A DNA stretch of 42,954 nt from Spirosoma fluviale. Its GTDB lineage: Bacteria > Bacteroidota > Bacteroidia > Cytophagales > Spirosomataceae. A model generated the notes under the pieces. It did no database searches, was not told the DNA's origin, and was given only the letters and a program-made list of their open reading frames with translations. How positions within the stretch are numbered: the stretch's first letter is position 1; each line of letters starts with the position of its first letter. Below, one piece after another: positions 3,422-35,026 of this stretch. Both the position numbers and the translations under genes were made by a program. Where the stretch lies: assembly GCA_945906915.1 (NCBI GenBank), contig CAMDSI010000002.1, forward strand, positions 1-42,954, in the 5' to 3' direction.

Positions 3422-4624
3422 ATGAAATTTTTATCCACCGCATTGGCCCTAGTTCTTTTGGTCAGTTCATCGATTAATGCCCAGTTTAAAAGGAAGAATG
3501 AGATTGATAATTTGTTAAATAGTATCTCTAAAAATAATCCCTTGCCCACTTTTGTTGCGGGTGGCGTTAATAAATCGGGGGTATTTTATCAATATAATCA
3601 CGGTAATAAAATTTGGTCAGGAAAAACTCCTATTAACGAAAACCACATCTTCCGGATATATTCCATGACGAAGGCCATTACGTCGGTTGCTGCTTTACAA
3701 TTAGTGGAACAAGGCAAATTACAGTTGGATGAACCTTTGGACAAATTAATGCCAGAAATGGCTTCGATTCCTATTCTAACAAAAGATGGAAAATTAGCTA
3801 AGGCAACAAAATCAATCACCTTAAGGCATTTATTATCACATACGTCTGGTTTTGGTTATCCATTCTTTAGCGATGGATTAGATAAATTCACTAAGAATAT
3901 GCCTGCAAACTATGCCTACTCGGATTTACCAAGACTCTTTGAATCGGGATCAAGTTGGCAATATGGAACAAGTACGGATTGGGTAGGGAAGATTGTGGAA
4001 AAAGTATCCGGCAAGGATCTGGAAACGTATTTCCGGGATAATATCTTACAGCCGCTTGGGATGACTAGAACGTTCTTTAATGTGCCTACTGATTTAGTTG
4101 GTGAGATTTCCACCTTTGGTCAATTAACGGGAGATCACTTTGTAGCAGACACCGTTTCCCAGTATAAGGATTTACATCTTACCACTTTTAGTGGTGGCGG
4201 AGGTCTATTTAGCACCTTTAAAGATTACGCTCAATTTATCCGATGTATTCTTAATGATGGAACGTTAAATAACCGCCAGATCATTAAAAAATCAACGGTT
4301 GATTTAATGTTTACAAATAACATAGGAGATTTATTTACCACCGTAAATGATCCTTCTCCTAATTATTCCTTTTTAATAAATCCTAAGACTACCTTTTTAG
4401 GGGCAAATAAATATAGTGTTGCTTGGGCGATCGACCAAACAGGACGAAAGAATATACAAAATGCAGGAACAGCCTATTGGTGCGGTGTTGGAAATACTTT
4501 TTATAGTATAGATCGTAAAAAAGGAGAGGCTGTTCTGTTTTTTAGTAATTCGTTCCCACTTGGAAATTCCTTTACCGAAGAGCTCTATTTTAATACTGAA
4601 GGAGTTATTTATAATTTAAAATAG
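3422..4624 (+). CDS. serine hydrolase, class C beta-lactamase / esterase family
   Basis: Signal peptide; SxxK motif 'YSMTKAI'; 'LLSHTSGFGYPF'; 'Y-x-N-like' and GG-rich C-terminal motifs. Confidence 0.92.
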   Translation: MKFLSTALALVLLVSSSINAQFKRKNEIDNLLNSISKNNPLPTFVAGGVNKSGVFYQYNHGNKIWSGKTPINENHIFRIYSMTKAITSVAALQLVEQGKLQLDEPLDKLMPEMASIPILTKDGKLAKATKSITLRHLLSHTSGFGYPFFSDGLDKFTKNMPANYAYSDLPRLFESGSSWQYGTSTDWVGKIVEKVSGKDLETYFRDNILQPLGMTRTFFNVPTDLVGEISTFGQLTGDHFVADTVSQYKDLHLTTFSGGGGLFSTFKDYAQFIRCILNDGTLNNRQIIKKSTVDLMFTNNIGDLFTTVNDPSPNYSFLINPKTTFLGANKYSVAWAIDQTGRKNIQNAGTAYWCGVGNTFYSIDRKKGEAVLFFSNSFPLGNSFTEELYFNTEGVIYNLK

Positions 4625-4651
4625 GCTGAACACATTCCCTTTAATTTTACT

Positions 4652-4687
4652 AAAAAGCCACTTCGTTTTCGAGGTGGCTTTTTTTTA
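4652..4687. terminator. Bidirectional rho-independent terminator between convergent genes
   Basis: aaaaa GCCACttcgttttcgaGGTGGC tttttttt hairpin flanked by A and T tracts between the 3' ends of 3422-4624(+) and 4685-5464(-). Confidence 0.85.
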
Positions 4688-5464
4688 TTCTTTCGATAAA
4701 TCCAGCAGCTCAATATTCCTAAAATCGATTTCTTGACCTTCGCTTTGAAGCGCAATGAATCCACTTTTTAATAATTTGCCATCGATTTTCAGGGAGGGGT
4801 TATAGCGATTGGCTACGCCACCTCCTATTTGGGGTTGGGTATATTCCAAAACCGTTTCTCCATTGATTTTATGCGTTACTACGGAATCCCCACGAACGAT
4901 TAATTCGACTGTAATCCATTGTTCATTTTCATACGTTTTCGAGCTTGAATTGATGCAATGGCGGGGGTCGATTCTGCCTTGATAAACGACGTCTGTTCCC
5001 GGTGAGCACATGTTTCCGGTGGGTCTTGGTTTACCATCGGCTAAAACACCTAAGAATTGCATTTCAACTGAGATGGGCCAATCTTGTTCTTTAAGTAGGG
5101 TGTGCGGGTCTTGAGAATGAAACATCACACCGGAGTTTCTCTCTGTATAAATGGGCGCATCATTTCGCCAAAGTCCCGTAAAGCGATATTGCAATCGAAG
5201 GATGTAATTAGAAAAAGGTTTGTCGAAATACAAATGTCCGTAGCGCTCATTGAAATGATCATATTGGTCATAGCGCACTTTAATCATCCCGTCTTCGGCT
5301 CGAAAAGTATTTCCAAAATTATCGCCCACTTCATGGTGGTGGATTTTGACTGTCCAGTTTTTCAGATTTTTGCCATTAAATAATGGAATCCATTTTTCTT
5401 TTTTTGGCTTTGCATCTGATAGGAATGCTAAACCACAAAGCGCGGCAATAAATAGAGTTTTCAT
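4685..5464 (-). CDS. DUF1080 (3-keto-disaccharide hydrolase-like) secreted protein
   Basis: 'WIPLFNGKNLKNWTVKI', 'NSGVMFHSQ', 'DIEVQFL'-like and C-terminal 'SGFIALQSEGQEIDFRNIEL' are DUF1080 signatures. Start moved to the internal Met (MKTLFIAALCG) because of the signal peptide. Confidence 0.93.
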   Translation of the reverse strand: MKTLFIAALCGLAFLSDAKPKKEKWIPLFNGKNLKNWTVKIHHHEVGDNFGNTFRAEDGMIKVRYDQYDHFNERYGHLYFDKPFSNYILRLQYRFTGLWRNDAPIYTERNSGVMFHSQDPHTLLKEQDWPISVEMQFLGVLADGKPRPTGNMCSPGTDVVYQGRIDPRHCINSSSKTYENEQWITVELIVRGDSVVTHKINGETVLEYTQPQIGGGVANRYNPSLKIDGKLLKSGFIALQSEGQEIDFRNIELLDLSKE

Positions 5465-17890: not shown

Positions 17891-19450
17891 CTATTTAATT
17901 TTCTCGGGTCCCCCTAAATGGCTGCAACTATTTAAGTCTTTCATGGAAGTAAATGGCACCTCATTTTTTTCATATTTGAATGCCTGTTCCAAAGTTATCG
18001 TTCTGTTATTATCCCCGCAACTGATATCGATATCCTTCATTTTAATTTGGCAAGGATGCTCATAGCCGCAAGCATGAGCCATTTCCAATGTTTCTTTTCG
18101 TAGGGTCTTGATATATTTAGAGAATCGAACTGATTTTAATGCCGGATCAATTCCACCACTCAGCCACTTGTTTTGTGTTGCAATACCCGTAGGGCACTTA
18201 TCCGTATGACATTCTTGTGCTTGAATACATCCAATTGAAAGCATTGCTTCTCTAGCCACATTTATTAAGTCTGCTCCTAATGCCATAGCTTTCATAATTT
18301 CACTTGGAAAACCAAGTTTGCCAGATCCAATAAAAACGATATCATTAGTTATACCTTTTTCTTTAAATACTTGATAAACTTCGCTGAATCCGTAGATCCA
18401 TGGAAGGGCAACATGGTCAGCGAAAGATGGAGGAGCAGCACCTGTACCGCCCTCGCCACCATCAATGGTGATGAAGTCTGGCCCCTTATTCTCTTTTTTC
18501 ATAATTTCTGCCAATTCTTTCCATTGCTCTAAATCACCTACAGCAGATTTTATTCCAACAGGTAATCCAGTTTTTGTGGCAATTTCCTCTATGAAATCAA
18601 CCAATTCTCGAATATTACCAAATGCTGTGTGATATGATGGGGAAAGTACGTCAGTATAAGGCTCCACACCTCTAATAGCTGCAATTTCTGGCGTATTCTT
18701 TTTTGCAGGCAAAACGCCCCCTTTTCCAGGTTTCGCACCTTGTGAAAGCTTAACTTCAATGGCCTTAACTTTCGAGTATTTGTTTAAAACTAATTCTTCT
18801 AATTTTTCATAACTAAAGTACCTTAATCCATCTTCACCTGTTATTCCACAGCCAAAATACCCAGTGCCTATGTGAAATATAACGTCTGCGCCTTGTTGGT
18901 GATAAGGAGATAATCCACCTTCACCTGTGTTATGGTAGGCTCCTACCATGGCAGCACCTTGATTTAGTGACATTTGTGCTTGTGCAGATAAAGAACCATA
19001 ACTCATTGCCGAAATGTTCACAATTGAATAGGGCCTGTATGGCTTCTTTCTATTATGTGATATCCCCATAACCTTCGCGCAGGGGATAAAATAAGGGTCT
19101 TTTGAACTATGATTTATATGTTCTTTTTCTACTTTATAAGGGAACATTTTTGGATTAATGAAGATGTAGTTAGCTGCATAGATATCTTTATCTGTGCCAA
19201 AACCTTCATAATTATTTTCACCCTTTGATGAGGAATAAATCCAAGATCGTTGAGATCTATTAAAAGGAAGTTCCTCTCGATTATTAGCGACAAAATATTG
19301 TCTTATGGGAGGTCCGAATGCCTCGGCAATATATCTCAATCGACCTAGTACGGGGAAATTCCTTTTTAGGGTATGTTTTTTTTGAGACAAGTCCATTATG
19401 GCAATTACAAGGACTATGGCAACTATGACTGCTAGGATAATGTAAATCAT
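17891..19450 (-). CDS. FMN-binding glutamate synthase family protein (membrane-anchored GltB-like)
   Basis: N-term TM; 'NISAMSYGSLSAQAQMSLNQGAAMVGAYHNTGEGGLSPYH', 'EVKLSQGAKPGKGGVLPAKK', 'DFITIDGGEGGTGAAPPSFADHVALPW', 'CHTDKCPTGIATQ'. Confidence 0.96.
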   Translation of the reverse strand: MIYIILAVIVAIVLVIAIMDLSQKKHTLKRNFPVLGRLRYIAEAFGPPIRQYFVANNREELPFNRSQRSWIYSSSKGENNYEGFGTDKDIYAANYIFINPKMFPYKVEKEHINHSSKDPYFIPCAKVMGISHNRKKPYRPYSIVNISAMSYGSLSAQAQMSLNQGAAMVGAYHNTGEGGLSPYHQQGADVIFHIGTGYFGCGITGEDGLRYFSYEKLEELVLNKYSKVKAIEVKLSQGAKPGKGGVLPAKKNTPEIAAIRGVEPYTDVLSPSYHTAFGNIRELVDFIEEIATKTGLPVGIKSAVGDLEQWKELAEIMKKENKGPDFITIDGGEGGTGAAPPSFADHVALPWIYGFSEVYQVFKEKGITNDIVFIGSGKLGFPSEIMKAMALGADLINVAREAMLSIGCIQAQECHTDKCPTGIATQNKWLSGGIDPALKSVRFSKYIKTLRKETLEMAHACGYEHPCQIKMKDIDISCGDNNRTITLEQAFKYEKNEVPFTSMKDLNSCSHLGGPEKIK

Positions 19451-19531
19451 ATAAATTAAAGGTTTTTGACGATATTGATTTAAAGATAGTTTTTGTCTGA
19501 AGGAAAAGCAGCTATTAAATAAAGTATTTAT

Positions 19532-20080
19532 TTAACGGTATAATTCGCATTTTTCACCACCGCAAAGTTCTCTTACTTCTTGTTGAGTCAAATTATTAAG
19601 GTCAGATTTAAGCATATTTCTCTTTTCAGATGAAAAACGTCTCAAGAGTTTTCCTTCACAAAAACGACGCATTTGGGTTTCATTTTCAATAATAAGGCCA
19701 GGAACTTGAGTTAATTCACCAGTTTCATTCTTGGCAGCCATTGTAAAATAACAGGAATTAGTATGAGTGACGATTCCAGATTTAGGTTTTAGAGTTTCTA
19801 CTCGCATACCTATTATCATTGTAGTATTCCCTACATAATTTACGGAGGATTTAATAGAAACTAAATCTCCCACTTCTACTGGATTATGAAATTCAACCCC
19901 CTCTACCGCGACTGTCACACAATATTCACCACTGTGTTTTGCTGCGCAGACATATGCAACTTTGTCCATAAGAGAAAGTAAAATTCCTCCGTGGATTTTA
20001 CCGCTGAAATTAGAGTACGATGGAATCATTAATTCAGTAATGGTAGTCTCTGAATCGCTAATTTTTTTGAATTGAGTCAT
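19532..20080 (-). CDS. Acyl-CoA thioesterase (hotdog fold)
   Basis: 'NFSGKIHGGILLSLMDKVAYVCAAKHSGEYCVTVAVEGVEFHNPVEVGDLVSIKSSVNYVGNTTMIIGMRV'. Confidence 0.95.
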   Translation of the reverse strand: MTQFKKISDSETTITELMIPSYSNFSGKIHGGILLSLMDKVAYVCAAKHSGEYCVTVAVEGVEFHNPVEVGDLVSIKSSVNYVGNTTMIIGMRVETLKPKSGIVTHTNSCYFTMAAKNETGELTQVPGLIIENETQMRRFCEGKLLRRFSSEKRNMLKSDLNNLTQQEVRELCGGEKCELYR

Positions 20081-20247
20081 GTGCAGTTGGTCTTATGTTT
20101 TTCGAAATTAGTAAAATCAATATAATTCCATTTAAAAAATAGTATTTTGCCTTTAGTTAATTGTCTGATTGCCGTTTAATAAGTTTTCTCTCTTGTTTTT
20201 GATGAATATAAATATTGTCACTATTTTTAGCAAATACCTTTTATACT

Positions 20248-20643
20248 ATGAAAGTAGTTTTTGTTGCGCAAAAGCATAAATTCATTCTTTTTGCTTTTCC
20301 ATTTATTTCCTTTCGATTTTCGGTTTTTAATACTGAATCCTCTCATTATGAGTTAATGATACCGCAGGAAAAATTAATGGAAAATTGGATCTGGAATATT
20401 CAATGGTCTCCTTTTCGCATAAAGCAAGTTAGGTTAATAGAAAATGTAGTTCCTAGACCTGAATTTGTCATTCAATTTCAACAAAAATTGCCATTAAAGC
20501 CTACAGGTTTAGTTAATTTAGCCTTAAACAATCTAGCCGTTAAAGGTATTGATATTAATAAACGACCTAAAAAGTTAACTGTTAATAGCTGTGAACTTAA
20601 AAACACAAACCCTTTTGATTTATCACAACTTAATCCCCAATAA
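20248..20643 (+). CDS. Hypothetical protein
   Basis: ORF reaches an ATG at 20248 preceding the DUF4407 operon by 11 nt; no recognised domain. Confidence 0.45.
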   Translation: MKVVFVAQKHKFILFAFPFISFRFSVFNTESSHYELMIPQEKLMENWIWNIQWSPFRIKQVRLIENVVPRPEFVIQFQQKLPLKPTGLVNLALNNLAVKGIDINKRPKKLTVNSCELKNTNPFDLSQLNPQ

Positions 20644-20654: not shown

Positions 20655-21893
20655 ATGGTAACTGAACAAAAAACCGATTCAAGTACAATTCAAGAAACTT
20701 CAGGAAGTCGTCGATTTCTAAGATTCATGTGGAATTGCGCAGGTGCAGATGTTGAATTATTAGATAAACACTGCCCCCCCTCTGATCACTCAAAGTATGC
20801 GGGTCTAGGAGGAATAGTATTAGCTACTGGTATTTTAGCTGCGTTTTCTGCGGGATATGCCTTTTATACTATCTTCTCGCCTAAAGGTGACGCAATTGAT
20901 GGTACTTTATTTATTGGAACCATAATTGGATCCATTGTTGGGGGTATTGTTTGGGGACTAATGATTTTTAATTTGGACCGTTTTATAATCTCATCTACAG
21001 GAAAAGGGGATGGTAAAGATAGTATTTCATTAAAGGAATTAGTTAATGCAATTCCTCGAATTATTATGGCTGTAATAATTGGTGTTACAATGTCTGCTCC
21101 TTTAGAAATTCGTATTATGCAATCAGAGATTGACGCCGAATTACAAAGTAAACAGAATGCTTATTTAGAAAAGTTAAATGCTGAATCTGATACCATAATT
21201 AATAAGAAAGCAACCTCTTGGAAGGTTCAACTTGATAAGGTAGAGAGAGAGATTAAAACAAAGCAAGATTATTTTGAGCTTCGTCGACTTGAGTTAAAAG
21301 ATCAAATGAAAGCTTTAGATGATGAGGCTGCAGGTAAGACTGCGAATGGTTCTGTAGGTATGGGGCCGGCCTATAGAAGTAAAAAAGGGAATTTGGATAA
21401 ATTAGAATCGGAACGAATTAAGGCGGAGGAAGCTGCTGCACCTGAAATTAAGCGTCTGCAAAAAAATGCCGACACCTACCGTGAAAAAGTTCAAAACATT
21501 GAATCGGAAAGAGAGGAATTGAAGAAGGATAATGTAAAGCGGAAAAATCAATTAGATGGTTTATTGGAGCGCATTCATATCTCACACGAGATTGGAGGTT
21601 TAGTTCCTTGGGTTATTATGGCACTTCTATTGATGATTGAAACAGGGCCTATCTTCTTCAAATTAATGATGATAAAAGGACCATATGATTATTTAGAGGA
21701 GAACAAGAAGAAGTTGATTTTGGCCAAATCGGGGATCATCGAATTGCCTCCACATGTGGAAGGGGATAAGGCAGTAGTTGAATATAAGTACTTGCAGGTA
21801 GATGCGATGTCAGATGTGGCAAAAGGAGCAAATGAAAGCTGGACAAATCAAGTTAATTCGGAGATTAAGGATAATCCTGCGAAATTTTTATAA
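20655..21893 (+). CDS. DUF4407 domain membrane protein with coiled coil
   Basis: 'RRFLRFMWNCAGADVELLDKHCPPSDHSKYAGLGGIVLATGILAAFSAGYAFYTIF' plus long coiled coil between TM pairs matches DUF4407 architecture. Confidence 0.9.
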   Translation: MVTEQKTDSSTIQETSGSRRFLRFMWNCAGADVELLDKHCPPSDHSKYAGLGGIVLATGILAAFSAGYAFYTIFSPKGDAIDGTLFIGTIIGSIVGGIVWGLMIFNLDRFIISSTGKGDGKDSISLKELVNAIPRIIMAVIIGVTMSAPLEIRIMQSEIDAELQSKQNAYLEKLNAESDTIINKKATSWKVQLDKVEREIKTKQDYFELRRLELKDQMKALDDEAAGKTANGSVGMGPAYRSKKGNLDKLESERIKAEEAAAPEIKRLQKNADTYREKVQNIESEREELKKDNVKRKNQLDGLLERIHISHEIGGLVPWVIMALLLMIETGPIFFKLMMIKGPYDYLEENKKKLILAKSGIIELPPHVEGDKAVVEYKYLQVDAMSDVAKGANESWTNQVNSEIKDNPAKFL

Positions 21894-21898
21894 TCAAA

Positions 21899-23059
21899 TT
21901 GAAACTACTTAGGTATTTAGTGATTGATTCATTGACATTTGGCGGAAAAATTCTGCCAAGTGTCAATGATTTATCCATTGTGGAGAAAATCTTGCTTTGG
22001 TTGAAAATTCAGTTTGCAGTCTTTGCATTGGGGGCTGTAATTTTGTTTTATTTTATTTCTTTTAGTTGGATTGCAGGCATCATTACTGGGGCCCTATTTA
22101 CATTTGTTTATATTTCTATTACGCTCATATTACTTTCTGGATTTAGAAAATCAAGTTATTTAAAGAAAGATAAAAAGGTGCTCGCTAATACTCAGATAGT
22201 TATTGGAAAAACCAAATTAGAGGTAGAAGATGTGAGTTATGAATCTGTTCCCGAGAATTCGAACTTGATTCCAAGTATTATTCTTCGTGTAATTTATATT
22301 GTTGTATTTGCTTTTACAATTTTTTGTGGATTGACCTTAGGGCTAAGCATGTTATTCTATCCTGACCTAGAAGAAACACATGGAAAAGAAATTGTACAAC
22401 ATTATGAGAAGTCATACCCAGCCTTATATGGTAATCAAATTAATTCGCTGAGAAATAAACTAACTAAACTAGAATCAGAGCGTCAAGCTATAGTTCAAAA
22501 ACAGCTTGACGTTACAACCGAAATTCAGCAAGCCCAAGATGAATTCCACAAGAGTTTTTTACAGGTGGACTTGACTATTTTAGATAAACAGTTATTGGAT
22601 TGGGATTTATTGCATCATCAAGAACAACTTAACTTGCCCGTTAAAATAAAATCGCTAGATGATGAGTACAATGATGGGTTAGAAAAACTTCAACTGTCCA
22701 TCCAATTTAGCAAATACGGAATTTACCGTATTCAACATTTCTTAAAAAAATTGCTTTTCTTGGCCATATTTTTAGTTGGAGGCCTCATATTTTTGTTTAT
22801 TTACCCCTTCTACATTCGTTATAAAATGGTATTAGCTGAATCAGATTTGGATATTAAATTGGAGAATAGAACAATTGATTTAATTAAACAAGAATATGTT
22901 AATTCTAATAAAGAAATCAAGAGGTTGATGGATGAATATGGTTATCAGGATTACCCAGGAGATAGTACAGATCCATTTATGCCTTCCTCCATTTTGAAAT
23001 CGGAAAAAATTGCATTGAAAAATCAGTTGGATACCTTTTTAAAAAATGAATTAGCATGA
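21899..23059 (+). CDS. TM/coiled-coil protein with DUF4407-like topology (TTG start)
   Basis: Two N-terminal TMs, a third TM 'IILRVIYIVVFAFTIFCGLTLGLSMLF', coiled coil 'INSLRNKLTKLESERQAIVQKQLDVTTEIQQAQ', then TM 'LLFLAIFLVGGLIFLFIYPF'. Starts 5 nt after the DUF4407 stop. Confidence 0.7.
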   Translation: MKLLRYLVIDSLTFGGKILPSVNDLSIVEKILLWLKIQFAVFALGAVILFYFISFSWIAGIITGALFTFVYISITLILLSGFRKSSYLKKDKKVLANTQIVIGKTKLEVEDVSYESVPENSNLIPSIILRVIYIVVFAFTIFCGLTLGLSMLFYPDLEETHGKEIVQHYEKSYPALYGNQINSLRNKLTKLESERQAIVQKQLDVTTEIQQAQDEFHKSFLQVDLTILDKQLLDWDLLHHQEQLNLPVKIKSLDDEYNDGLEKLQLSIQFSKYGIYRIQHFLKKLLFLAIFLVGGLIFLFIYPFYIRYKMVLAESDLDIKLENRTIDLIKQEYVNSNKEIKRLMDEYGYQDYPGDSTDPFMPSSILKSEKIALKNQLDTFLKNELA

Positions 23060-24270
23060 GTATACATTTAACTCCTGAAAATTACGACAAAAAGGTAGAT
23101 GATTCATTTTTTGCCTATGGCAATGTCAAAGCTCTTTTTAGAGGGCCTGAACATCTAGAAAATGAAGTAGTTACTACGATTTCAAATAGGACTAACTCAA
23201 AATCTATTAGGGTATTTGATATAATTTTATACAAAGACATTAACATATCAGAGGCTAATGTTATACCTAATGATCAATGGGAGTCTACAATTGCGGAAGT
23301 AAAAAAAGGAAGTTTCTTTCATTCTACTTTGGAAGATAAACTAGCGGTAAATTTTAGCAAGCCTTATTTTTCTAATGTTGATTTTCTCAGAACTACTGTT
23401 TACAGACCTGAGTGTTTTATAAAAAATCCAAAGATCAATTATTCTCTACAGAAAGAAGGATTTACGTTTGGGGAGATTGAAGGGGAGTTGTATTTTAAAG
23501 TAGGAGATCCTAAGCCTGTGGCTCCAATTAAAAAAGCCGCTCCTATACAACCTGTTGAAGTAACAAAGACGGAAACAATTCCTGTTCCTACAGCGCCCAT
23601 ACAGCCTGGTATTGGATGTTGGGGTTTAATCATGAGTTTATTTGGTTTTTCTTGGGCCTTACCATTATTACCAGGTAAATACTCTAAGAATGACATACCC
23701 GCCCTTCAAAAAGCTGGTTGTTTATGGCCGATTCTGCGAATTTTAGGATTATTGTTTTTACTGATGTTTTTGCTGAAAGGGTGTATGAATTATTCTTCAA
23801 CTGTTTGGAAAAATTCAAATAAAGATGCAATTAAAAATGATGTCAAACTTGATATACCCACAGGACAAGAAAAATTAGACCAAAGTAGTCAATTAGCTAA
23901 ACTACTCCCATCTGAAGCGGCTAAAATGAAGAAAAATAAATTGTCAGATACCACTTTTGTGGTACCTCCTGGCAATTATAAATTAGTTTTTTTTGATTCC
24001 AATAGACAGGATAGCGATAAAATACGTCTAAGTTTAAATGGACGGGAGTTAGCCCATTCTTTAGAGATATTTAACGAGAAGCAAGAAGTAGTTTTAAAAA
24101 ATATGCGATTTGGAAAAAACATTATTGATTTTGAGGCTTTAAGTAATGGTAAATATGGTATTTGTACGGCTGAGGTTTACCTAGTCAATATGGATGATGG
24201 AGCGACTCAAATGTATAAGTTTTATAATATAGAGGGGTTTAAGAAACGTATTTTCATTGAGCAACATTAA
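23056..24270 (+). CDS. Hypothetical membrane protein: soluble N-terminal domain, two TMs, beta-rich extracytoplasmic C-terminal domain
   Basis: ATGA overlap with the upstream gene; hydrophobic segments 'CWGLIMSLFGFSWALPLLPG' and 'LWPILRILGLLFLLMFLL'; C-term 'TTFVVPPGNYKLVFFDSN...'. Confidence 0.7.
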   Translation: MSIHLTPENYDKKVDDSFFAYGNVKALFRGPEHLENEVVTTISNRTNSKSIRVFDIILYKDINISEANVIPNDQWESTIAEVKKGSFFHSTLEDKLAVNFSKPYFSNVDFLRTTVYRPECFIKNPKINYSLQKEGFTFGEIEGELYFKVGDPKPVAPIKKAAPIQPVEVTKTETIPVPTAPIQPGIGCWGLIMSLFGFSWALPLLPGKYSKNDIPALQKAGCLWPILRILGLLFLLMFLLKGCMNYSSTVWKNSNKDAIKNDVKLDIPTGQEKLDQSSQLAKLLPSEAAKMKKNKLSDTTFVVPPGNYKLVFFDSNRQDSDKIRLSLNGRELAHSLEIFNEKQEVVLKNMRFGKNIIDFEALSNGKYGICTAEVYLVNMDDGATQMYKFYNIEGFKKRIFIEQH

Positions 24271-26009
24271 TGGCTATTAAAACTAAAGATGTTTGGATTA
24301 AAGGGGATTTAAAGGCGCTTTCGACCTTTGATGAAACTTTTTTATCCACTGGCTCAAGGCAAGTGAATGACGTATCATTAACTAATATCGAGATTACCAA
24401 TGCGGTAATTTTAGACGATTTTGATGCTAAGTTAGAACGGAAGGATCCTTTCATTGAATACAATACGAGTATATCTGATGTAAAAATTCGCTTTAAAGGG
24501 GCTAGTCATGATGAAGTTGCATTCTCAGAAGATTTGGATGGAATGTTATTGAATGACGTGAAATTTTTTCAAAAAATTCATTTAAATGACGTAGATAATC
24601 ACCTTATAAAAAGTACTGTATTTTTTCATCGTCGGATACAATTTACAGTGCCTGATCCTCCCAATTTGAAAATAGCTACGACAAGGGTAGTTTTAAATAA
24701 TCAATTTGGAGGAACTCCTATTATTAGGGAGGAGGTAATCACTCCCATTATTAAGGAGGTGACTATGAAGCCAGTAAATTCGAGGCTAAAATCGTTCTTT
24801 GCTGCTGAGAAAAAGAATTTTCTTTCCTCTATTTTAATCATAGCTCTTCTGCTTTTTTTGTTTTACAATACAGCTTTATTCCCTTTGGTTTTTATTGCTG
24901 GCATTGCCTATCTAGTCTGGTCTTTTAAAAAGTTATCCGTTGGCTATTCTAATCTGACTCCTAATCATGCGGATGATTCAGTTTCCTCTGTGGATATATA
25001 TAAAGCTCGCAGTTCAGTAAAAGATCGATCTTGGAGCCCATTTAGTAAGTTCATTCTTGTTATTTTAGTTCTTCTAATTCTATATGCATTAGGGGCTAAA
25101 AATTACGGTTTACTTAAGTTCCTAGGAATTGTCGCCTTTATCTGGATCCTGCTTAATTATTTCACCTCCGGTTTTGGCTTATTAAAAAAGGTGTTCAGTT
25201 TAATTGGTGGGCTAATTTTAGGTCTTCTAGGTATTATGGCTTTGTGGTTTTTATTAGGGGGAAATAATTCTTCCGTTGTTGACGATAGCCAAAAAGAGGA
25301 TTTTATTAAAAATAATAAGATTCTAAAAACAGGGGATTCTCTTTTACACTTTAGGAATTGGAAAGATTATAATGTAAATCAACTTGCTGGTAATTACTTT
25401 ACGTATTATCCTGAATTTGATAAATCTGTCAAGTTTAGAAATGACTACGATTCCGATGATTTTTCAGCGGTTTATCAAAGTTTAGTTGAAAAGGATTTAA
25501 AAACAGTGGAGGTTTATTCTAAACTTTTTGATAGTTTAAATACAGCAAATAAATGGAATAGACAGCAATTAGCAGAGGCTATCGTTACCTCTATACAAAC
25601 AATTCCTTATGTATTAGTACATGATCAATCTTGTCAGCAAGCTATTCAAGAAAGTGGAAGTTCATTCTTAATTCAATACCATAAGGACGGTAAAGAATGC
25701 TTACCTAATATTAAATATGGTGTACAAGGAGGTTATGAATTTATTCATAATCTGAAAGGGGATTGCGACACTAGGTCACTTCTTTGCTTTGAATTATTAA
25801 ACAGGTTTAAATTTCCTGTTGCGATGCTAATAAGTGAGGAATATGGGCATTGCATCCTAGGAATTGACCTACCGTTAAAAGGAAAATCAGTAGGGAATTA
25901 TCAACATAATTATTTAGTTTGGGAGACTACTGCTCCTGGCTTTAAACCGGGGGAATTGTCCCCTGAAATTTCAGATATGGATAAGTGGCATATTGCCATC
26001 ACAAATTAA
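24270..26009 (+). CDS. Multi-TM protein with C-terminal transglutaminase-like cysteine protease domain
   Basis: TAATG overlap; about 6 TM segments; C-term 'LKGDCDTRSLLCFELLNRFKFPVAMLISEEYGHCILGIDLP...NYLVWETTAPGFKPG' with Cys/His of the transglutaminase-like fold. Confidence 0.72.
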   Translation: MAIKTKDVWIKGDLKALSTFDETFLSTGSRQVNDVSLTNIEITNAVILDDFDAKLERKDPFIEYNTSISDVKIRFKGASHDEVAFSEDLDGMLLNDVKFFQKIHLNDVDNHLIKSTVFFHRRIQFTVPDPPNLKIATTRVVLNNQFGGTPIIREEVITPIIKEVTMKPVNSRLKSFFAAEKKNFLSSILIIALLLFLFYNTALFPLVFIAGIAYLVWSFKKLSVGYSNLTPNHADDSVSSVDIYKARSSVKDRSWSPFSKFILVILVLLILYALGAKNYGLLKFLGIVAFIWILLNYFTSGFGLLKKVFSLIGGLILGLLGIMALWFLLGGNNSSVVDDSQKEDFIKNNKILKTGDSLLHFRNWKDYNVNQLAGNYFTYYPEFDKSVKFRNDYDSDDFSAVYQSLVEKDLKTVEVYSKLFDSLNTANKWNRQQLAEAIVTSIQTIPYVLVHDQSCQQAIQESGSSFLIQYHKDGKECLPNIKYGVQGGYEFIHNLKGDCDTRSLLCFELLNRFKFPVAMLISEEYGHCILGIDLPLKGKSVGNYQHNYLVWETTAPGFKPGELSPEISDMDKWHIAITN

Positions 26010-26019
26010 ATATATAACT

Positions 26020-26541
26020 ATGAACAGCATCGCACTTTATTTAGGAGTATTAGAAGTAGTTTTAGGCTTAGTCTATGGAATTTTACTTAGCTTCTTCGTC
26101 TTTTGGCTAATGAAGAAACTCTTTTTAGACAAAATGGAGATACGGTATGATAATTTGGCCTTTGGTGTATTGATGGCTTTTGTGCTATTTTCTGTAGGTA
26201 AAATGGTCAGCTCAGCTCTGCAACCTGCTGTTGATTTCACGAATCGTTTGATGAATATGGGTCTTCAAATCGAAGAAGTATTAGGTCGTGCAAGTTATAC
26301 TATTACTGGATTTTTTGTTGTAAGCACTCTGGTGGCGGGAATTATCGTAGCCATCTCATTTGTCTTATTTAACTGGTTAACTCAAGGTCTTAATGAGTTT
26401 GAAGAGATCAAAAATAAGAATGTAGCAGTAGCCTTAATTTCAGGTACGATCATTCTAGTCATTACACAGTTTGTAGCTGGAGGAATGGAAATGATTTTTG
26501 AGGCTTTTATCCCTTATCCACAAACGCCTAGATTATTCTAG
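26020..26541 (+). CDS. DUF350-like (YjfL-type) membrane protein
   Basis: Four TMs in two similar halves: 'LVYGILLSFFVFWLMKKLF...NLAFGVLMAFVLFSVGKMV' and 'ITGFFVVSTLVAGIIVAISFVLFNWL...NVAVALISGTIILVITQFVAGGM'. Confidence 0.65.
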   Translation: MNSIALYLGVLEVVLGLVYGILLSFFVFWLMKKLFLDKMEIRYDNLAFGVLMAFVLFSVGKMVSSALQPAVDFTNRLMNMGLQIEEVLGRASYTITGFFVVSTLVAGIIVAISFVLFNWLTQGLNEFEEIKNKNVAVALISGTIILVITQFVAGGMEMIFEAFIPYPQTPRLF

Positions 26542-26548
26542 TTTTTTT

Positions 26549-28447
26549 ATGTTACAGAAATTTAAATATCGATTTGATTTATTGATAAGCCAAAATCCAA
26601 AGGGACTATTGGTGTTATTAACAATTGGTGCATTATCCTTACTGGCCATAGTATCTGGTTTGATAACTTTTTTTGATTCTAGCTCCACGAGTTTTTGGAC
26701 TAATTATGAAGATGTAATTAATATTACCTTATCGCCGTCTATTAAAGTAAATTCTAGTATTTTACTAACCTTTCTTTATGTTTTCGTAGCTGCTTTAGGT
26801 CTATTATTTATTAGTGTTTTAATCGGTATTCTAACTAGTATCATTGAATCAAGAATTATTGAATTAAGGCGAGGGCGGTCTCAGGTTTTAGAGTCAAATC
26901 ATTCGGTTTTTTTAGGGTGGTCTAATAAATTATTCACTGCCATCAAGGAGCTTTCGGAAGCGAATAAGAGTCTTAAAAAGGCAAGCATTGTGGTGCTTAC
27001 AATTCGTGATAAGGTTTTTATGGAGGAATATTTACTTCGTGAAATTCCGGCAAATTCCACTACTAAAGTGATTTGTAGAACGGGTGATCCAAGTGATTCT
27101 AAAGACCTCGAAATAATAAGTCCTAATTCTGCAAGATCTATTGTGCTTTTAGCAACGGACGACGAATTCAGTGATTCGATGGTACTAAAACGCGCTCTAG
27201 CCTTACAAAAAAATGATTTAGTGACATGCCCAGTCATAGCAGAAGTAAACTCTGCAGAAAATGCTGAAGCATTAAAATTATTGCCAAAATTAACAGTTAT
27301 TCAACCTCGTAATTTTATTATGCGACTTTTAGCACAGTCTCTGAAAGAGCCTGGACTTAGTAAAGTTTATTCAGAGTTGCTAACTTTTGAAGGAAAGGAA
27401 ATTTATTTTTGGCCGCAGATTAAACAGCTAAATTTGTTTGAAGATCATATTGTAGGGCGAACTTTTAAAGAGGTTGTTTATGAGTTTGAGAATTCGAGTT
27501 TGATCGGAATCGTGCATGATTATCAATCCTTAGGAGGAAATGCACAAACGAATGCAGTTAAGATATTACCTAATCTAGATTATGTCATTCAATCAAGTGA
27601 TCGATTGATTTTGATCTCTGAGGATGATTCAACCATAGGAGGATCAGTGGGTAAGTCGGTGTTTAAAAATTTAGCATTTAACAATTTAGCTAATCAAGCC
27701 TACACTTATAAACCTAAACACATTACTATTGTAGGATGGCATAATTGGGGTGATATATTATTGTCAGAATTACAGATGCAATTACCCGGTGGAAGTCATA
27801 TTGATTTATATTACAATTCAGAATTATCAGATGGCCCTGATTTATCTTTAATTGAAGTTTTAACTAATTTGAAGGTTTCTATTCAAGTTCAAAATAGTTT
27901 AAAGAAAGAAACATTTGAAGCTATTCAGTGGGAAAAGACGGATAGTGTTTTGTTATTAGGCTATCGTGATAAATTGAATTTGCAACAAGCGGATTCGTAT
28001 ACTTTATTAACTTTTACGCACATTAAGTTTATACGTGATTCTCAAAAACGGGATATTAATATCTGCTGTGAGATATTAGATCCTAAAAATGGGGAGCTTA
28101 TTGAAGGAACACGCGATGATGAGTTTGTAGCTAGTGATGAATTAGTTGCAAAATATTTGATCCAATTATCTGAAAATAAGTATTTGAAATCCGTTTATAC
28201 AGATCTGCTTGACGAGTCTGGTTCCGAATTATTTCTGAGACCGGCATTTACTTATGTTTCAAATCACGATAAGGTTTCATTCGCGGATTTAGTTAATACT
28301 GGATTAGAACGCAATGAAATTGTGATAGGAATACAATTAAAAACGGCAGCCAATAATCACAAGATTAATTCAATTCTATCACCTGCTAAAATGTCTAGCT
28401 ACCAGTTAAATGAACAAGATAGAATTATCGTGATAGCTAATAGTTAG
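26549..28447 (+). CDS. CASTOR/POLLUX-like ion channel with TrkA-N-like regulatory domains
   Basis: TM, pore-like region, second TM 'ALGLLFISVLIGILTSIIESRIIELRRGRSQVLESNHSVFLGWSNKLFTAIKELSEANKS' (CASTOR/POLLUX signature) followed by two Rossmann-like RCK units ('HITIVGWHNWGDILLSELQ'). Confidence 0.82.
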   Translation: MLQKFKYRFDLLISQNPKGLLVLLTIGALSLLAIVSGLITFFDSSSTSFWTNYEDVINITLSPSIKVNSSILLTFLYVFVAALGLLFISVLIGILTSIIESRIIELRRGRSQVLESNHSVFLGWSNKLFTAIKELSEANKSLKKASIVVLTIRDKVFMEEYLLREIPANSTTKVICRTGDPSDSKDLEIISPNSARSIVLLATDDEFSDSMVLKRALALQKNDLVTCPVIAEVNSAENAEALKLLPKLTVIQPRNFIMRLLAQSLKEPGLSKVYSELLTFEGKEIYFWPQIKQLNLFEDHIVGRTFKEVVYEFENSSLIGIVHDYQSLGGNAQTNAVKILPNLDYVIQSSDRLILISEDDSTIGGSVGKSVFKNLAFNNLANQAYTYKPKHITIVGWHNWGDILLSELQMQLPGGSHIDLYYNSELSDGPDLSLIEVLTNLKVSIQVQNSLKKETFEAIQWEKTDSVLLLGYRDKLNLQQADSYTLLTFTHIKFIRDSQKRDINICCEILDPKNGELIEGTRDDEFVASDELVAKYLIQLSENKYLKSVYTDLLDESGSELFLRPAFTYVSNHDKVSFADLVNTGLERNEIVIGIQLKTAANNHKINSILSPAKMSSYQLNEQDRIIVIANS

Positions 28448-29210
28448 TATTCATAAAATCCACATGATTATTGAATATAGCCAATGAGATTTCTGTTCCA
28501 CTCTCTCCATTTGCTTTATAATCAAATGGGTCATCTAGATCTTTAATTAATATGATCATGTAGATGATTAAAAAGGTGACTAGAACGGTAAAGAATAAGG
28601 CAGCAAAAAAAGGTTCTATTTTTATAAAAATTAGACCCGCTGAAATTACAAAGGCCATTGACTCAACAATTGCATACGCAGAACTAATAAAATTGGTATC
28701 TCTGATTGCCTCAATACGCAATAAGTTCTTTCTGATTGTACTCATTTCATTTTTAATTCTAATTAGAAAGTTAGCTTGTACTTTTTCTTTGTCTAGTTGA
28801 ATGATGATGGAGTTTAGTTCGTTAATTTGATATAACAAATCAGATGTTGTGATATCTTTATAAAGCCAAGATTTGATATTATTGACAAGGTTTTTTTGAA
28901 ATGAAATAAATTGCTGATAAGTAGCATCAGAATATTGATGCTTTAATGTTAAGCTATCGTCCAAAATATTTTTTAAGGAGGAGGTAATTTCCCCAGGGAT
29001 TTTTTCACTCTCTTTATAATCAGATAATACACCTGAAATTAAAAATCCAATGAGGAAAATAGTGGCACCCACTAAACTTGTAAATAGGGCATTTAATTCC
29101 ATCATTTCTAGATCATAATGATGAAATAAAGCTTTAATGAGTAAGATGCTTGCTATTATTGGAAGTACTTGTAGAAGGATCTTCCATTTGATGTAAAGTT
29201 GTTTTTTCAT
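28437..29210 (-). CDS. Bestrophin/DUF4239-like four-TM membrane protein
   Basis: Two N-terminal TMs, long helical middle, two C-terminal TMs followed by 'LIKDLDDPFDY' similar to the DUF4239/bestrophin-like 'DLDxPF' motif. Confidence 0.55.
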   Translation of the reverse strand: MKKQLYIKWKILLQVLPIIASILLIKALFHHYDLEMMELNALFTSLVGATIFLIGFLISGVLSDYKESEKIPGEITSSLKNILDDSLTLKHQYSDATYQQFISFQKNLVNNIKSWLYKDITTSDLLYQINELNSIIIQLDKEKVQANFLIRIKNEMSTIRKNLLRIEAIRDTNFISSAYAIVESMAFVISAGLIFIKIEPFFAALFFTVLVTFLIIYMIILIKDLDDPFDYKANGESGTEISLAIFNNHVDFMNTNY

Positions 29211-30254: not shown

Positions 30255-31277
30255 TTACTTAAGACCAAGTATTTGTCTAATTGGATTAGGTATAAACTCG
30301 AGGTAATTCTTTTTTAATACGAACTGCAATCCCTTGACTAATACATAAATTACTAGGATGAAAATGAAATAGGAGTAAATGGGATTAACGCTAATGTCTG
30401 CTTTAGCTAACGGTTGTAAGACAAATGATATAATTACAGTGTGAATGACGTATACGAAGAGGCTGTGCTCCCCTAATTTAGCAATGTGTGAAAAGAAGCT
30501 AGGAAGGTGTAGTATTTGAATTGCTGCCATACTGGCGGCTAAAGTGAGTGTGGTAGTAAATAGTAAATAGGGGAGTTCGACCGGATAAAATAATTCGACA
30601 TATCCATTTCTGATGCCTTGCGTGATTGGGATATAAACTAGGTAAATGGCACTTAACGCACACGCTAAAATACTTAAAGAAATGATATAGTTGTTTAGCC
30701 ATTTCTTTTTATAAACGTCCCCTATTATACTACCTAATACACTGAAGGAGAGCCAAGGAAAAAGGGGGAACCAACCGTCTAAGAATAATCGTTTGAACTC
30801 AAATAGATGCTCTGCTTGAAGAGAGTTAACCACCAAAATGTCGTTGTTTGCAAAACGGTAATTAATGTCGGTATTTAGGCCAAAGTGAATGAATATAATT
30901 GCAAGCCAGATTATTCCTTTCAAGGCTAGAGAGCTATTTCTAATCGCCAAATTGATTAACAAAGAAAATCCGATTAGGTACAGTATGTCAAAAGTATTAA
31001 AGGGTTTAATTCCCCAAATGACTGAGTCAATAAATGTTCCTGTCGCGATTAAATAGCCGGAATTTTGCCATTTGGCCCAATTCTTCTCCCCTGGTTTTAT
31101 GGTTACACTTAAAACAAATCCTGATAAGAAGATGAAAACAGGTGCAGCTAAGGAACAAAATAGACGAAATTCATAGGATATAGACTCTTTAATTAAATAG
31201 GGGCTCGCATTAGCAATGATCATTATGAAAATGGCAGCTGTCCTAAGTAAGTCTATTCCAGGCAATCTTGTTTTCAT
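30255..31277 (-). CDS. DUF1624 / acyltransferase-type multi-pass membrane protein
   Basis: 'RLPGIDLLRTAAIFIMIIANASPYL', about 9-10 TMs, C-term 'LGEHSLFVYVIHTVIISFVLQPL' as in HGSNAT/acyltransferase-3-like proteins. Confidence 0.75.
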   Translation of the reverse strand: MKTRLPGIDLLRTAAIFIMIIANASPYLIKESISYEFRLFCSLAAPVFIFLSGFVLSVTIKPGEKNWAKWQNSGYLIATGTFIDSVIWGIKPFNTFDILYLIGFSLLINLAIRNSSLALKGIIWLAIIFIHFGLNTDINYRFANNDILVVNSLQAEHLFEFKRLFLDGWFPLFPWLSFSVLGSIIGDVYKKKWLNNYIISLSILACALSAIYLVYIPITQGIRNGYVELFYPVELPYLLFTTTLTLAASMAAIQILHLPSFFSHIAKLGEHSLFVYVIHTVIISFVLQPLAKADISVNPIYSYFIFILVIYVLVKGLQFVLKKNYLEFIPNPIRQILGLK

Positions 31278-32332
31278 TAGATTGCGAATATTATAGTAGC
31301 TGCAAAGAATAAAAATGGGAATAAAAATCTGAACGCTAAATCGATCTTTTTTGCTTTGAGTTTTTGACTTTCAACGCCGGAATCATCTAAATAGAACGTG
31401 ACTAAGGCCTGTGCCATTGTTATAGCAATCAAAAAATAACAAGTATAAAAGATTTTGTCGATGTAGATGATATACCCAATATCTGGAAGTTCGCCAGATA
31501 CAGCCAATTGAAAGGCAATGGCACTCAGTAAAGATGTTACAGTTAAGCCAGCTGCGATATCAATTTTTTCAGCAGGCAAGTAAAATACAAAATAAACTAG
31601 CAAAAGAATGATCATCAAGGGGATCAGTAATTTGCTAATGTAGGGTACAAAAGATCGGTTCAATTTGATTGTTGTATCGATTCTACTGTAAACTGAAATC
31701 GGGTCAAATTCAGGGTCACCAAAATTCGAATTATAAACACCTTTCCCTATTTCAATGTCAGATTTAGAGAAGAAGTAACTTTCATTTTTGTTCGTAATTA
31801 AATCATTCGAAAATCCCCACAGATGCCTGCTTTGTTTTGAGTTAATGTAAGAGGAAGTGTCTGCCGATATTTCAAATTGATTGCCTGGTAAAAGAGAATT
31901 TTCGATGCTGATTTTTAAGGTTTGAATATCAAGTGGATACATTCTGAAATCGGGATTAAAATAGAAAGCTCCTTGGTGAAAACCGGTATAATAGAATTTA
32001 TTCTTTTCGATTTCACGCGTCTCTTGAATTTCTTCTTTAAATCCTTCAATGGGAAATTCGACAGCATTTACATATTCCATATTGGTAATCACGTCATTAG
32101 AAATTCCCGTTTTAGTGGAATCGTTATCGAATATCATCCACCAATAAAATTCCGTATTGAATTTACCCTCCTTATAATCTGGGACAAGCTTTTTAATGTA
32201 GATACCAAAGCGAACTTTTACTTTCTCTTCTTTCGCAAAAAGGAGTTGAGCAAAAAATGGTAACAATAAAAGACAACTCAGAGTTAAGGCAAATTTTTTC
32301 AGCATTTCATCTGGAATTAAGATTAACTGCAA
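31277..32332 (-). CDS. Prokaryotic pentameric ligand-gated ion channel (Cys-loop/Pro-loop receptor) homolog
   Basis: Signal peptide; Pro-loop motif 'FRMYPLDIQTLKISIEN'; M1-M3 'ISKLLIPLMIILLLVYFVFYLPAEKIDIAAGLTVTSLLSAIAFQLAVSGELPDIGYIIYIDKIFYTCYFLIAITMAQALVTFYL'; C-terminal M4 'FRFLFPFLFFAATIIFAI'. Confidence 0.87.
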   Translation of the reverse strand: MQLILIPDEMLKKFALTLSCLLLLPFFAQLLFAKEEKVKVRFGIYIKKLVPDYKEGKFNTEFYWWMIFDNDSTKTGISNDVITNMEYVNAVEFPIEGFKEEIQETREIEKNKFYYTGFHQGAFYFNPDFRMYPLDIQTLKISIENSLLPGNQFEISADTSSYINSKQSRHLWGFSNDLITNKNESYFFSKSDIEIGKGVYNSNFGDPEFDPISVYSRIDTTIKLNRSFVPYISKLLIPLMIILLLVYFVFYLPAEKIDIAAGLTVTSLLSAIAFQLAVSGELPDIGYIIYIDKIFYTCYFLIAITMAQALVTFYLDDSGVESQKLKAKKIDLAFRFLFPFLFFAATIIFAI

Positions 32333-32343: not shown

Positions 32344-32381
32344 AATTAAAAAAGACTCAATTTGTTGAGCCTTTTTTAATT
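32344..32381. terminator. Rho-independent terminator downstream of ankyrin gene
   Basis: AATTAAAAAAGaCTCAAtttgTTGAGcCTTTTTTAATT extended inverted repeat. Confidence 0.8.
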
Positions 32382-34170
32382 AAAATAGGGATGGATCAGG
32401 TCTATTTACATCGATGGACCAATTAGATTCATCCAATAGTTGATTCGCATTTTCAAAGGATTTAAAACCTTCGCCTCCTGTTCCCTCTTTCCAAACAGAT
32501 TCACCTTTACTAGCATCAATGGTGTCTTTTCTGACCTCATAAATGGACTCAACAATCGATAAGTAAGATCCATTACCTTTTGAAACAAATTCATCAAAAC
32601 TTAAAAATCCACCATTATCTATGTGCAAATTCATTCTTTCAACAATTACTGCACCGTCTTCTATTGTTTCAAATGAAATTTCAGAAAGACTATCCCACGA
32701 GAACAACATACTCACATTATCGTCTCCTTCATGTGCTCCATAAAAACCATTTTTATTTATAGCTATCCATGAGACAACGTCTTCTTTCCAAATTACAAAA
32801 GGAATTACCCACCAGGCATGCTTTAGTTCTTCTTGAAGTTCTAAGGGCGCATAGGAAAGGATCGGAATTACTTTCTCTGAAACAATTGATTTTTTTATAT
32901 TTGAGATTTCTTTTTCTTTGAATTTAGGGAAATTAGTCTCGTCATTGAGATAAATCACCCAAGAGGGTATATTAGCAGTTATACCTAAAGCAAAAGCATA
33001 CTGGATTGATTTTTCTTGCCATTTTCTTAAGTATTCTTTAGCCTCTGTACTACTATTTGTATGATTGATTACTGGAAAATCTGCTTCATCATCTTCAGTT
33101 GTTATTTCGACTTCTTGATTCTCAACCTCCTCTTCAACCAGTTGTTCTTCTGTTTCCTCATTCGAAGAATCTCCATATAAAGCATTTTCAATAACGTTTA
33201 GTTTATTTTCATCATAACCACTCAGTTTGCCCTCTTCAGCTAAAGTTCTTATCGCATCAAAGAAATAGTTTCCATTTGCACACGGTTCCATCAAACAAGC
33301 TAAATCAGCATTATTTTCAATTAGTAATTCGACGACCGGCCAAACTTGATTTAATATAGCTTCTCTTAAAGGAGTACCGCCTGCTTCTGAGTGGTATTCG
33401 TTATATTGAAGTACGCGTCTATTGATATCAACACCAGCATCAATTAAAATTTTAACAGCCTCTATTCTTCCATTTGCAGCTGCTAAATGGATAGGAGTTC
33501 TGGAATCGGCACCCAATATGTCTGGATTTGCACCTGCTTTAATTAAGACTTTCAAAACTTCATTTTGTGCATCCCATGCGGCAAAGTGCACTGCAGTATA
33601 CTTATCTTGTCCGGTATCTAATATATCTAGATCTCCTCCTTCTTGAATGATTCGATTTATGGTATCGATGTCTCCTTGTTCAGTAGCAGAAATGAGTTCT
33701 GGGCGATCAAAAATCATTTCAACGTTTTCTGTATTACCTTCTTCTAACGCTGCTAATAAACTCTCAAGTAAGGCATCATCGATTGGTTCATTTTCATCTG
33801 TTGCGCTTTCATCCTGAATTGGGCTAGATTGTACTGTTTCAGTTGAGAATGCATTAATCAAAATGGTAGCACCAGCCAAAGCATCCTCTACCGTTTCGAA
33901 TGAAGTGTTTCCTGCTAAACGAATACCTTGGGAGTATGCCTCTAAAGCAGAATTGGAAGCTAAGATAGGGGCCAAAAACTCTTCATCTCTACAGTAAAAC
34001 CCTACTTTGATCGTATTTTTTGACGTATTAAAAAACACATGCGTTCCTTTAGCCGGATTTAATGCGGGTATATGTATATCCAGGTAATTATCTTTGTTTA
34101 CCTTCTTTACGACAGCATCAGGATGCATAGACCCGATACCATTTGCTAATTGATCTTGAATAGTACTCAT
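32380..34170 (-). CDS. Ankyrin-repeat protein with distinct N- and C-terminal domains
   Basis: 'TAVHFAAWDAQNEVLKVLIKAGANPDILGADSRTPIHLAAANGRIEAVKILIDAGVDINRR...GGTPLREAILNQVWPVVELLIENNADL' ankyrin repeats; C-terminal 300 aa not ankyrin. Confidence 0.92.
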   Translation of the reverse strand: MSTIQDQLANGIGSMHPDAVVKKVNKDNYLDIHIPALNPAKGTHVFFNTSKNTIKVGFYCRDEEFLAPILASNSALEAYSQGIRLAGNTSFETVEDALAGATILINAFSTETVQSSPIQDESATDENEPIDDALLESLLAALEEGNTENVEMIFDRPELISATEQGDIDTINRIIQEGGDLDILDTGQDKYTAVHFAAWDAQNEVLKVLIKAGANPDILGADSRTPIHLAAANGRIEAVKILIDAGVDINRRVLQYNEYHSEAGGTPLREAILNQVWPVVELLIENNADLACLMEPCANGNYFFDAIRTLAEEGKLSGYDENKLNVIENALYGDSSNEETEEQLVEEEVENQEVEITTEDDEADFPVINHTNSSTEAKEYLRKWQEKSIQYAFALGITANIPSWVIYLNDETNFPKFKEKEISNIKKSIVSEKVIPILSYAPLELQEELKHAWWVIPFVIWKEDVVSWIAINKNGFYGAHEGDDNVSMLFSWDSLSEISFETIEDGAVIVERMNLHIDNGGFLSFDEFVSKGNGSYLSIVESIYEVRKDTIDASKGESVWKEGTGGEGFKSFENANQLLDESNWSIDVNRPDPSLF

Positions 34171-34174: not shown

Positions 34175-35026
34175 TTATTTTTTTATAACTCTTAAATAAT
34201 AGCCATTTTCGAGGTTTGATTTTGTTAATAAGGCTCCATCGTGTGTTCTAAAAACTGGAATATCATCACCTAACCATAAAGCAGTTTGATTTTTGCCCCA
34301 AAAACCCGTTACAAAATTTTTATATTGAGATTTTACACTTTTAGTTAAGATTTTATATTCTAAAATCCCTCCTGGAATCACATTTAGTCCGCTTTCATTA
34401 CTTCCTTTATCTGTGCCAAATTGTCCATCAATAAAACCATATAAATGATAGTCGCCCCAGCCATAATCTCTACTTTGCAAAGCTTCTGCATTATATTCAC
34501 CATTAATATCTGATAAATCCGCGAAACCAGTATGATCAATTTCTAAGGTTATATTCAAACTTTTAAATAAATTATACCAATCATTTCTAGATGGAATTTC
34601 AAATCCCGCAGGCGCTATATTTTTAGAATTGTTTACTGCGTAGTAGTTGTAGATTTTCCCATACTCTTTCCCCAACTCATTATCATAATTATAGTTTGCC
34701 CAAGCAGGTGTTTTATCTTTAATAAATTTCATCCATTCTTCATTAGTATTAGCTTGAAGAATAGGAGTTCCATCCTGAAATTTAGAGACAGTAAGATTTG
34801 AGGTTGTCCATTCTCTTGATCCGACTCTGACAACTTTATAATAATTTTTTTCTGCATCAAAAATTTCAGGATTTTTAGTATAAAGTTCGCTGTAGCTAGA
34901 AGCATTACTTACAAGATTAAAAGGGATTCCTATTAAACCTAGGCATATATCTACTATAAGTCCTATGATTAAAAAGGCTAAGGTTTTTAAAATAAAACCT
35001 GTAATATATTCTGCAATTGTTTTCAT
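34175..35026 (-). CDS. FISUMP-like protein with N-terminal TM
   Basis: 'REWTTSNLTVSKFQDGTPI', 'GKIYNYYAVNNSKNIAPAGFEIPSRNDWYNLFKSL', 'GGILEYK...' resemble FISUMP domain; hydrophobic N-terminus. Confidence 0.75.
   Translation of the reverse strand: MKTIAEYITGFILKTLAFLIIGLIVDICLGLIGIPFNLVSNASSYSELYTKNPEIFDAEKNYYKVVRVGSREWTTSNLTVSKFQDGTPILQANTNEEWMKFIKDKTPAWANYNYDNELGKEYGKIYNYYAVNNSKNIAPAGFEIPSRNDWYNLFKSLNITLEIDHTGFADLSDINGEYNAEALQSRDYGWGDYHLYGFIDGQFGTDKGSNESGLNVIPGGILEYKILTKSVKSQYKNFVTGFWGKNQTALWLGDDIPVFRTHDGALLTKSNLENGYYLRVIKK

Follow-up and report, generated by a model that had tools for sequence, protein, structure and literature searches.

A conserved Bacteroidota membrane operon that joins DUF4407 and DUF350 genes to a transglutaminase-fold gene

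We analyzed a window of 42,954 nucleotides from Spirosoma fluviale (contig CAMDSI010000002.1, positions 1 to 42,954; assembly GCA_945906915.1, a metagenome-assembled genome (MAG), 85% complete in 219 contigs) and found that it carries a real gene system whose gene order is conserved far beyond chance: a small gene (g0), a DUF4407 gene (g1), a DUF4407-like gene (g2), a further membrane-protein gene that only some relatives have (g3), a gene for a transglutaminase (TG)-fold protein (g4) and a DUF350 gene (g5). A POLLUX-like gene (g6), starting 7 nt after g5, is a lineage-specific addition and not a core member. As the best overall explanation, which we put forward tentatively and by analogy with known systems, the products of g0 to g5 may form a gated trans-envelope complex around a periplasmic hydrolase of the TG fold.

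Conservation and extent of the operon

Searching with the g4 sequence alone returned only the window itself among 59 close relatives, including 36 same-genus genomes (0/36), and a class-wide search of 392 other Bacteroidia genomes added 18 genomes, 15 of them with E<1e-8, most of whose neighborhoods show the same gene order. A TG-domain alignment searched against 85,462 species yielded 121 relatives, 80 of which were retrieved and kept; many are MAGs with unreliable names, and all 80 are titled Bacteroidota except that at locus L105, a MAG titled 'uncultured bacterium'. The DUF350 gene lies directly 3' of the TG gene in 76/80 loci; L043, L096 and L105 reach a contig edge there, and L039 is a real exception. 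Upstream order was counted where over 5 kb of sequence precedes the TG gene, which holds for 55 loci. Two DUF4407-family genes stand directly 5' of it in 46 of these, and among the other nine some have the DUF4407 genes split or interspersed by extra genes and a few consist of TG and DUF350 only. A small g0-like open reading frame (ORF) on the same strand directly precedes the DUF4407 gene in 44 of the 46. Two operon types occur, one with g3, mostly OmpA-bearing, and one without it (33/80). In the TG tree the window and L037 form a branch of their own (support 100/100), with 70-74% DNA identity over g0-g5. DUF4407 genes are also found elsewhere in many genomes, and DUF4407 alone is not diagnostic of the operon. 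An empty insertion site was sought in the same-genus genomes, where thioesterase and barrel-like homologues exist; synteny is not kept and no site could be defined.

The original prediction had described g1 to g6 as one compact unit that matched no gene set it recognized. Its six ORFs are present, open, collinear and on the forward strand, and the junctions are as it gave them (5-nt gap, ATGA overlap, TAATG overlap, 10-nt gap and 7-nt gap). The unit begins earlier than it had placed it, with the overlooked g0, whose stop lies 11 nt before the g1 start (Table 1). Co-occurrence in other genomes, on which it had staked the idea, holds for the core genes, their order being kept across dozens of species; it does not extend to g6, which is no conserved member and has no channel filter motif. 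The gene set likewise matched no system found here. The open-access literature found to mention DUF4407 describes no such operon and no link of DUF4407 to DUF350, and judged from it the operon is apparently undescribed.

Table 1. Genes of the operon and its probable or recurrent neighbors in the window (TM, transmembrane segment)
Gene	Product	Position	Strand	Basis
g0	Small beta-rich protein (131 aa); its gene opens the unit	20248..20643	+	ATG at 20248
g1	DUF4407 membrane protein, 4 TM	20655..21893	+	PF14362 1.6e-60
g2	Remote DUF4407 paralogue, 4 TM and coiled coil as in g1	21899..23059 (TTG start)	+	hhalign
g3	N-terminal soluble domain, Gly-Cys motif, 1-2 hydrophobic segments, C-terminal domain	23056..24270	+	alignment
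g4	N-terminal beta domain, 5 predicted membrane-region helices, C-terminal transglutaminase-fold domain	24270..26009	+	AlphaFold2, profiles
g5	DUF350 (YjfL-type), 4 TM	26020..26541	+	PF03994 5.8e-13
g6	POLLUX/CASTOR-like 2-TM and RCK protein	26549..28447	+	PF06241 (Castor_Poll_mid) 9.3e-21
	4HBT acyl-CoA thioesterase, divergent from g0, recurrent neighbor	19532..20080	-	PF03061 3.6e-16
	HGSNAT-like membrane acyltransferase, probable functional neighbor	30255..31277	-	PF07786 9e-17
	Pentameric ligand-gated channel-like gene, probable functional neighbor	31277..32332	-	Neur_chan_memb 9e-5, below cut-off

The transglutaminase-fold domain and its partners

Pfam searches with single sequences gave no significant match for g2, g3 or g4. 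The g4 triad Cys499-His527-Glu552 is invariant in an alignment of 42 relatives, and the spacing of the triad motifs is constant in 76 of 81. The AlphaFold2 model of g4 (pLDDT 80 overall, >90 over most of residues 350-579) has a beta domain at the N-terminus and membrane helices, and its TG-like part is modeled with confidence; Foldseek returned PNGase structures with probabilities of 0.89-0.96 and poor E-values, and a profile alignment of the TG family with structure 4fgo brought out a common SPxEFI...GDC motif. The PDB match lists 4fgo only as 'Periplasmic protein', and we take it to be Legionella LapG. The Transglut_core (PF01841) cut-off was not reached, with no match for the window's g4 and a best E of 0.004 in a relative, and Pfam scans gave no match to PF06035 (Peptidase_C93/LapG) in g4 or its TG relatives. 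Each of the fold lines is weak alone; combined, they make the TG fold convincing, though not the type of reaction. The transglutaminase-like Cys/His domain claimed earlier is thus upheld by the LapG profile match, the PNGase structures and the invariant Cys, His and Glu, with Pfam staying below threshold.

The domain is probably a hydrolase, a peptidase or amidase being likelier than a cross-linker. Were it instead a true transglutaminase or a transpeptidase, cross-linking envelope proteins or peptidoglycan, the fold and the Cys-His pair would be in keeping, and OmpA-type anchoring of a partner subunit would suit it; but the Transglut_core match is sub-threshold, the nearest PDB profile match is the LapG protease and the third residue is Glu, and we consider such an enzyme very improbable. 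The TG domain very probably faces the periplasm, since the helices that cross the membrane in the window's model are odd in number and the loops carrying positive charge are predicted to lie inside, L034 has a lipobox-like start, a J-domain is fused to the g4 N-terminus in L031, a DnaJ gene lies beside the operon in L029, and a partner subunit bears OmpA.

Among the partners, g1 scores 205 bits against a DUF4407 cut-off of 31.3, shares 35-47% identity with most relatives (83% in L037), and has a conserved cytosolic loop (NLDRFI..STGKGDG) and a long coiled coil at residues ~156-298 that is predicted to be periplasmic. In its AlphaFold2 model (pLDDT 77) four helices span the membrane, and TM3 and TM4 are separated by a long pair of helices, which we infer from charge distribution and hydropathy to lie outside the cytoplasm. 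Kinship of DUF4407 with Wzz/FepE was considered and rejected, as the FepE match (0.015) is by coiled coil only. The g2 product qualifies only through profile-profile comparison (hhalign with the g1 family, 97.7%, E 2e-12), and its homologue in L024 scores 2.5e-20 against PF14362, bearing out its earlier description as DUF4407-like; the family calls for g1, g5 and g6 were also correct (Table 1). Calling g3 a TM protein captured its hydrophobic segments and was otherwise too thin, since in most relatives its C-terminal part is an OmpA peptidoglycan-binding domain (PF00691 1.5e-21 in L020; PDB profile matches). The N-terminal domains of g3 and g4 start alike (hhalign 94%, E 1e-7 over ~50 residues). 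With 56% identity in L037 and 7-22% elsewhere, g0 is a fast-evolving occupant of its slot, where position is better conserved than sequence. At window 20190-20230, spaced about 20 nt from the g0 start, stands TTTG...TATTTTTA, which appears to resemble the Bacteroidota promoter consensus.

The POLLUX-like gene and other neighbors

Like CASTOR, POLLUX and DMI1, g6 has a pore-TM plus RCK layout (PDB matches to CASTOR and DMI1, ~1e-46), with Castor_Poll_mid and RCK domains present and TrkA_N just under the Pfam cut-off; unlike them, it is devoid of the filter Asp (AD-S/A-G) and Gly. Homologues keep W..SLM...D-x-G between the two TM segments in about 41 of 44 comparable cases (L139 and L236 do not), a count made by hand, the script pattern having missed the DQG form and L240 having been mis-extracted; at the D-x-G position the window reads NITLSPSIKV. 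In CASTOR, the D265N change at the filter Asp abolished current (PMC6697748). Since g6 has lost an Asp needed for CASTOR current, the earlier suggestion that the complex opens a channel through g6 finds no support, and the distribution also speaks against it: a POLLUX gene is absent from all 80 TG loci, and of 393 Bacteroidia genomes surveyed 23 others have one, of which G093 alone has a TG gene as well, with the two on different contigs. As a rule POLLUX homologues stand by themselves (20 neighborhoods without any core gene), and g6 was rejected as a core member. Tentatively, g6 might sense a ligand through its RCK part instead of conducting ions as a CASTOR-type channel does. On the reverse strand, a Bestrophin-like gene (window 28437-29210; 31.9 bits against a Pfam cut-off of 32) converges on g6 with an 11-nt overlap of its 3' end.

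Ion-channel genes do, however, recur beside the operon. Of the positions one or two genes after DUF350, 5/64 hold a pentameric or Kv-like channel gene, compared with 2/698 in the rest of the flanks; the window was left out of this count, and the test (Fisher p=7e-5) is post hoc, its categories having been set once the data had been inspected. The pentameric-channel family is rare, with members in just 3 of the 292 further Bacteroidia genomes sampled, two of which (G093 and G098) carry a TG gene; yet its gene adjoins the operon in L049, L058, L064, L098 and L101. It is paired with an HGSNAT-like gene in L049, L058, L098 and, on the opposite strand, the window; the pair is unlinked to the operon in G093 (L256). 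In L250 (G401), positions 970-4966 hold a contiguous POLLUX, pentameric channel and HGSNAT set, in which the POLLUX filter has Gly replacing Asp. No other observation speaks as strongly for a functional tie of g6 to the operon as this recurrence of the pair beside the operon and beside a filter-less POLLUX, and the place of g6 next to the operon is not random.

The same observations raise the alternative of an ion-homeostasis or envelope-tension device, in which DUF350 and an attached channel (POLLUX, pentameric or Kv-like) would be the output and the TG protein would trim or activate the channel or its coiled-coil partners. The unrelated channel families after DUF350, the co-occurrence of the rare pentameric family with the operon, and published operons in which DUF350 accompanies a ligand-sensing potassium channel (PMC11237479) argue for such a device; but a channel gene is missing from most loci, POLLUX homologues tend to stand alone and the window's copy has no filter, and we hold it rather unlikely.

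Several other genes recur around the operon. A thioesterase homologue lies downstream of DUF350 in nine relatives, often 4-5 nt away; in the window the thioesterase adjoins a glutamate-synthase-like flavin mononucleotide protein (17891-20080, - strand), a pair that follows the TG operon in L062, with the thioesterase alone in eight more. In L056, L065, L069, L075, L101, L108 and L114 the g3-less operon is preceded by a response regulator (~222 aa) paired with what is probably a sensor kinase (~554 aa). A solitary HSDR_N-type restriction-like protein (~354 aa) adjoins the operon in 11 loci, including L065, L069, L075 and L103, and a DUF6804 small membrane protein and secreted nuclease-like genes likewise recur next to it. 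Large proteins starting LEPTYLRYIYDGL in L020 and L025 (LEPSYLRYIYDGL in L048) recur near the DUF350 end and resemble winged-helix/repeat regions of STAND NTPases, with no NTPase part. The window further has an ankyrin-repeat protein (32380-34170, - strand) and beside it a gene with a Fib_succ_major domain (34175-35026).

Proposed function and known systems

Read together, the families suggest, with somewhat better support for than against, that the g0-g5 products assemble into one physical, trans-envelope complex. Cytosolic beta-domains (g0 and the N-termini of g3 and g4) would take in an internal signal, the two DUF4407 proteins would relay it across the inner membrane through their long periplasmic coiled coils, and g3 would anchor the complex to peptidoglycan in most relatives, the window having a different periplasmic domain. 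The g4 protein would display its Cys-His-Glu hydrolase in the periplasm, with access to an envelope substrate gated by the complex and DUF350 as its obligate membrane partner. The mode would be LapD-LapG-like, that is, regulated proteolysis at the cell surface; ion-channel proteins would attach in some lineages, with the window's POLLUX homologue as RCK ligand sensor. Control of envelope integrity or of surface proteins under stress is a plausible role, just short of probable. The broader idea of a new class of Bacteroidota trans-envelope signaling, in which a periplasmic TG-fold protease built into the complex is gated by cytosolic beta-domain sensors together with a pair of DUF4407 coiled-coil proteins, and a plug-in module of pentameric channel, HGSNAT-like protein and POLLUX sensor couples ligand or ion sensing to surface proteolysis, is unlikely in so complete a form. 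What survives of the earlier mechanism is a co-conserved membrane operon with a transglutaminase-like domain; channel opening via g6 is not supported.

Several results weigh against a gated hydrolase. The match of the TG family to 4fgo has an E of 0.38, weak on its own, and Foldseek with whole-protein models gave no match at E<0.001. The LapG Pfam family occurs in 0/61 Bacteroidota genomes, the naive hydropathy TM count of g4 varies among relatives, the g3 C-terminus of the window and L037 aligns as a different beta-rich segment and not as OmpA, and the operon holds no conserved substrate candidate.

The closest comparison is with LapD-LapG and related BTLCP (Peptidase_C93) systems, including HvyA, in which inner-membrane signaling reaches a periplasmic transglutaminase-fold cysteine protease with catalytic Cys-His (PMC3032545, PMC4241560). 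The SPxEFI...GDC motif and Cys-His pair of the g4 family suggest a functional analogy and not membership: the g4 TG domain is covalently part of a multi-TM protein, its third residue is a Glu with different spacing, it has no C93 Pfam match, and its operon has DUF4407 and DUF350 partners instead of a GGDEF/EAL LapD. PSP-network DUF350/YjfL operons are DUF350-centered, linked to envelope stress, and sometimes have a ligand-sensing RCK-type channel and periplasmic partners (PMC11237479). The operon shares with them a DUF350 protein (g5) and, sometimes, an attached channel, but otherwise combines TG with a pair of DUF4407 proteins; among the operon genes and the displayed Pfam families of downstream neighbors there is no PspA, CesT/Tir, ATP-grasp, spermidine synthase, DUF1190 or DUF2491. 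The g3 relatives, with a short membrane segment followed by OmpA, recall MotB/TolR-type proteins, and no membrane Asp or acidic motif was seen in the aligned g3 membrane segment. The long coiled coil of g1 recalls Zorya ZorAB, with the difference that it is predicted to be periplasmic; the PADLOC ZorA match (0.04) is by coiled coil only, and no MotA/ExbB fold is among the structure matches listed for g1.

Whether such a complex might instead act in anti-phage defense or abortive infection, sensing phage attachment or DNA entry and then cutting or depolarizing, bears on the earlier phrase 'envelope stress or abortive defence'. A defense role would fit the patchy accessory distribution (15/392 at E<1e-8, 0/36 in the genus), a TG tree in which families and orders are intermingled, the STAND-like proteins adjoining the operon in L020, L025 and L048, and PADLOC matches among 131 neighbor genes (Drt reverse transcriptase, CD-NTase, AbiEii, RtcR and PDC-S01), against matches of a more generic kind in a small, imperfect control set. 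Against it, no operon component matches PADLOC beyond the weak coiled-coil match, there is no conserved nuclease or toxin effector, few defense genes lie nearby, and tblastn gave no match on 72,556 plasmids or 50,697 phages. We judge defense quite improbable, and of the two suggestions envelope stress is the one that appears to fit better.

Bacteroidota appear to lack the LapD-LapG route, since the LapG Pfam family was absent from the genomes sampled. If a gated periplasmic hydrolase is the correct reading, they would gain a comparable inside-out protease signaling route, and DUF4407 and DUF350, two widespread families of unknown function, would gain a concrete partner enzyme. The filter-less POLLUX in the operon would then offer an example from nature of a channel put to new use as a sensor.

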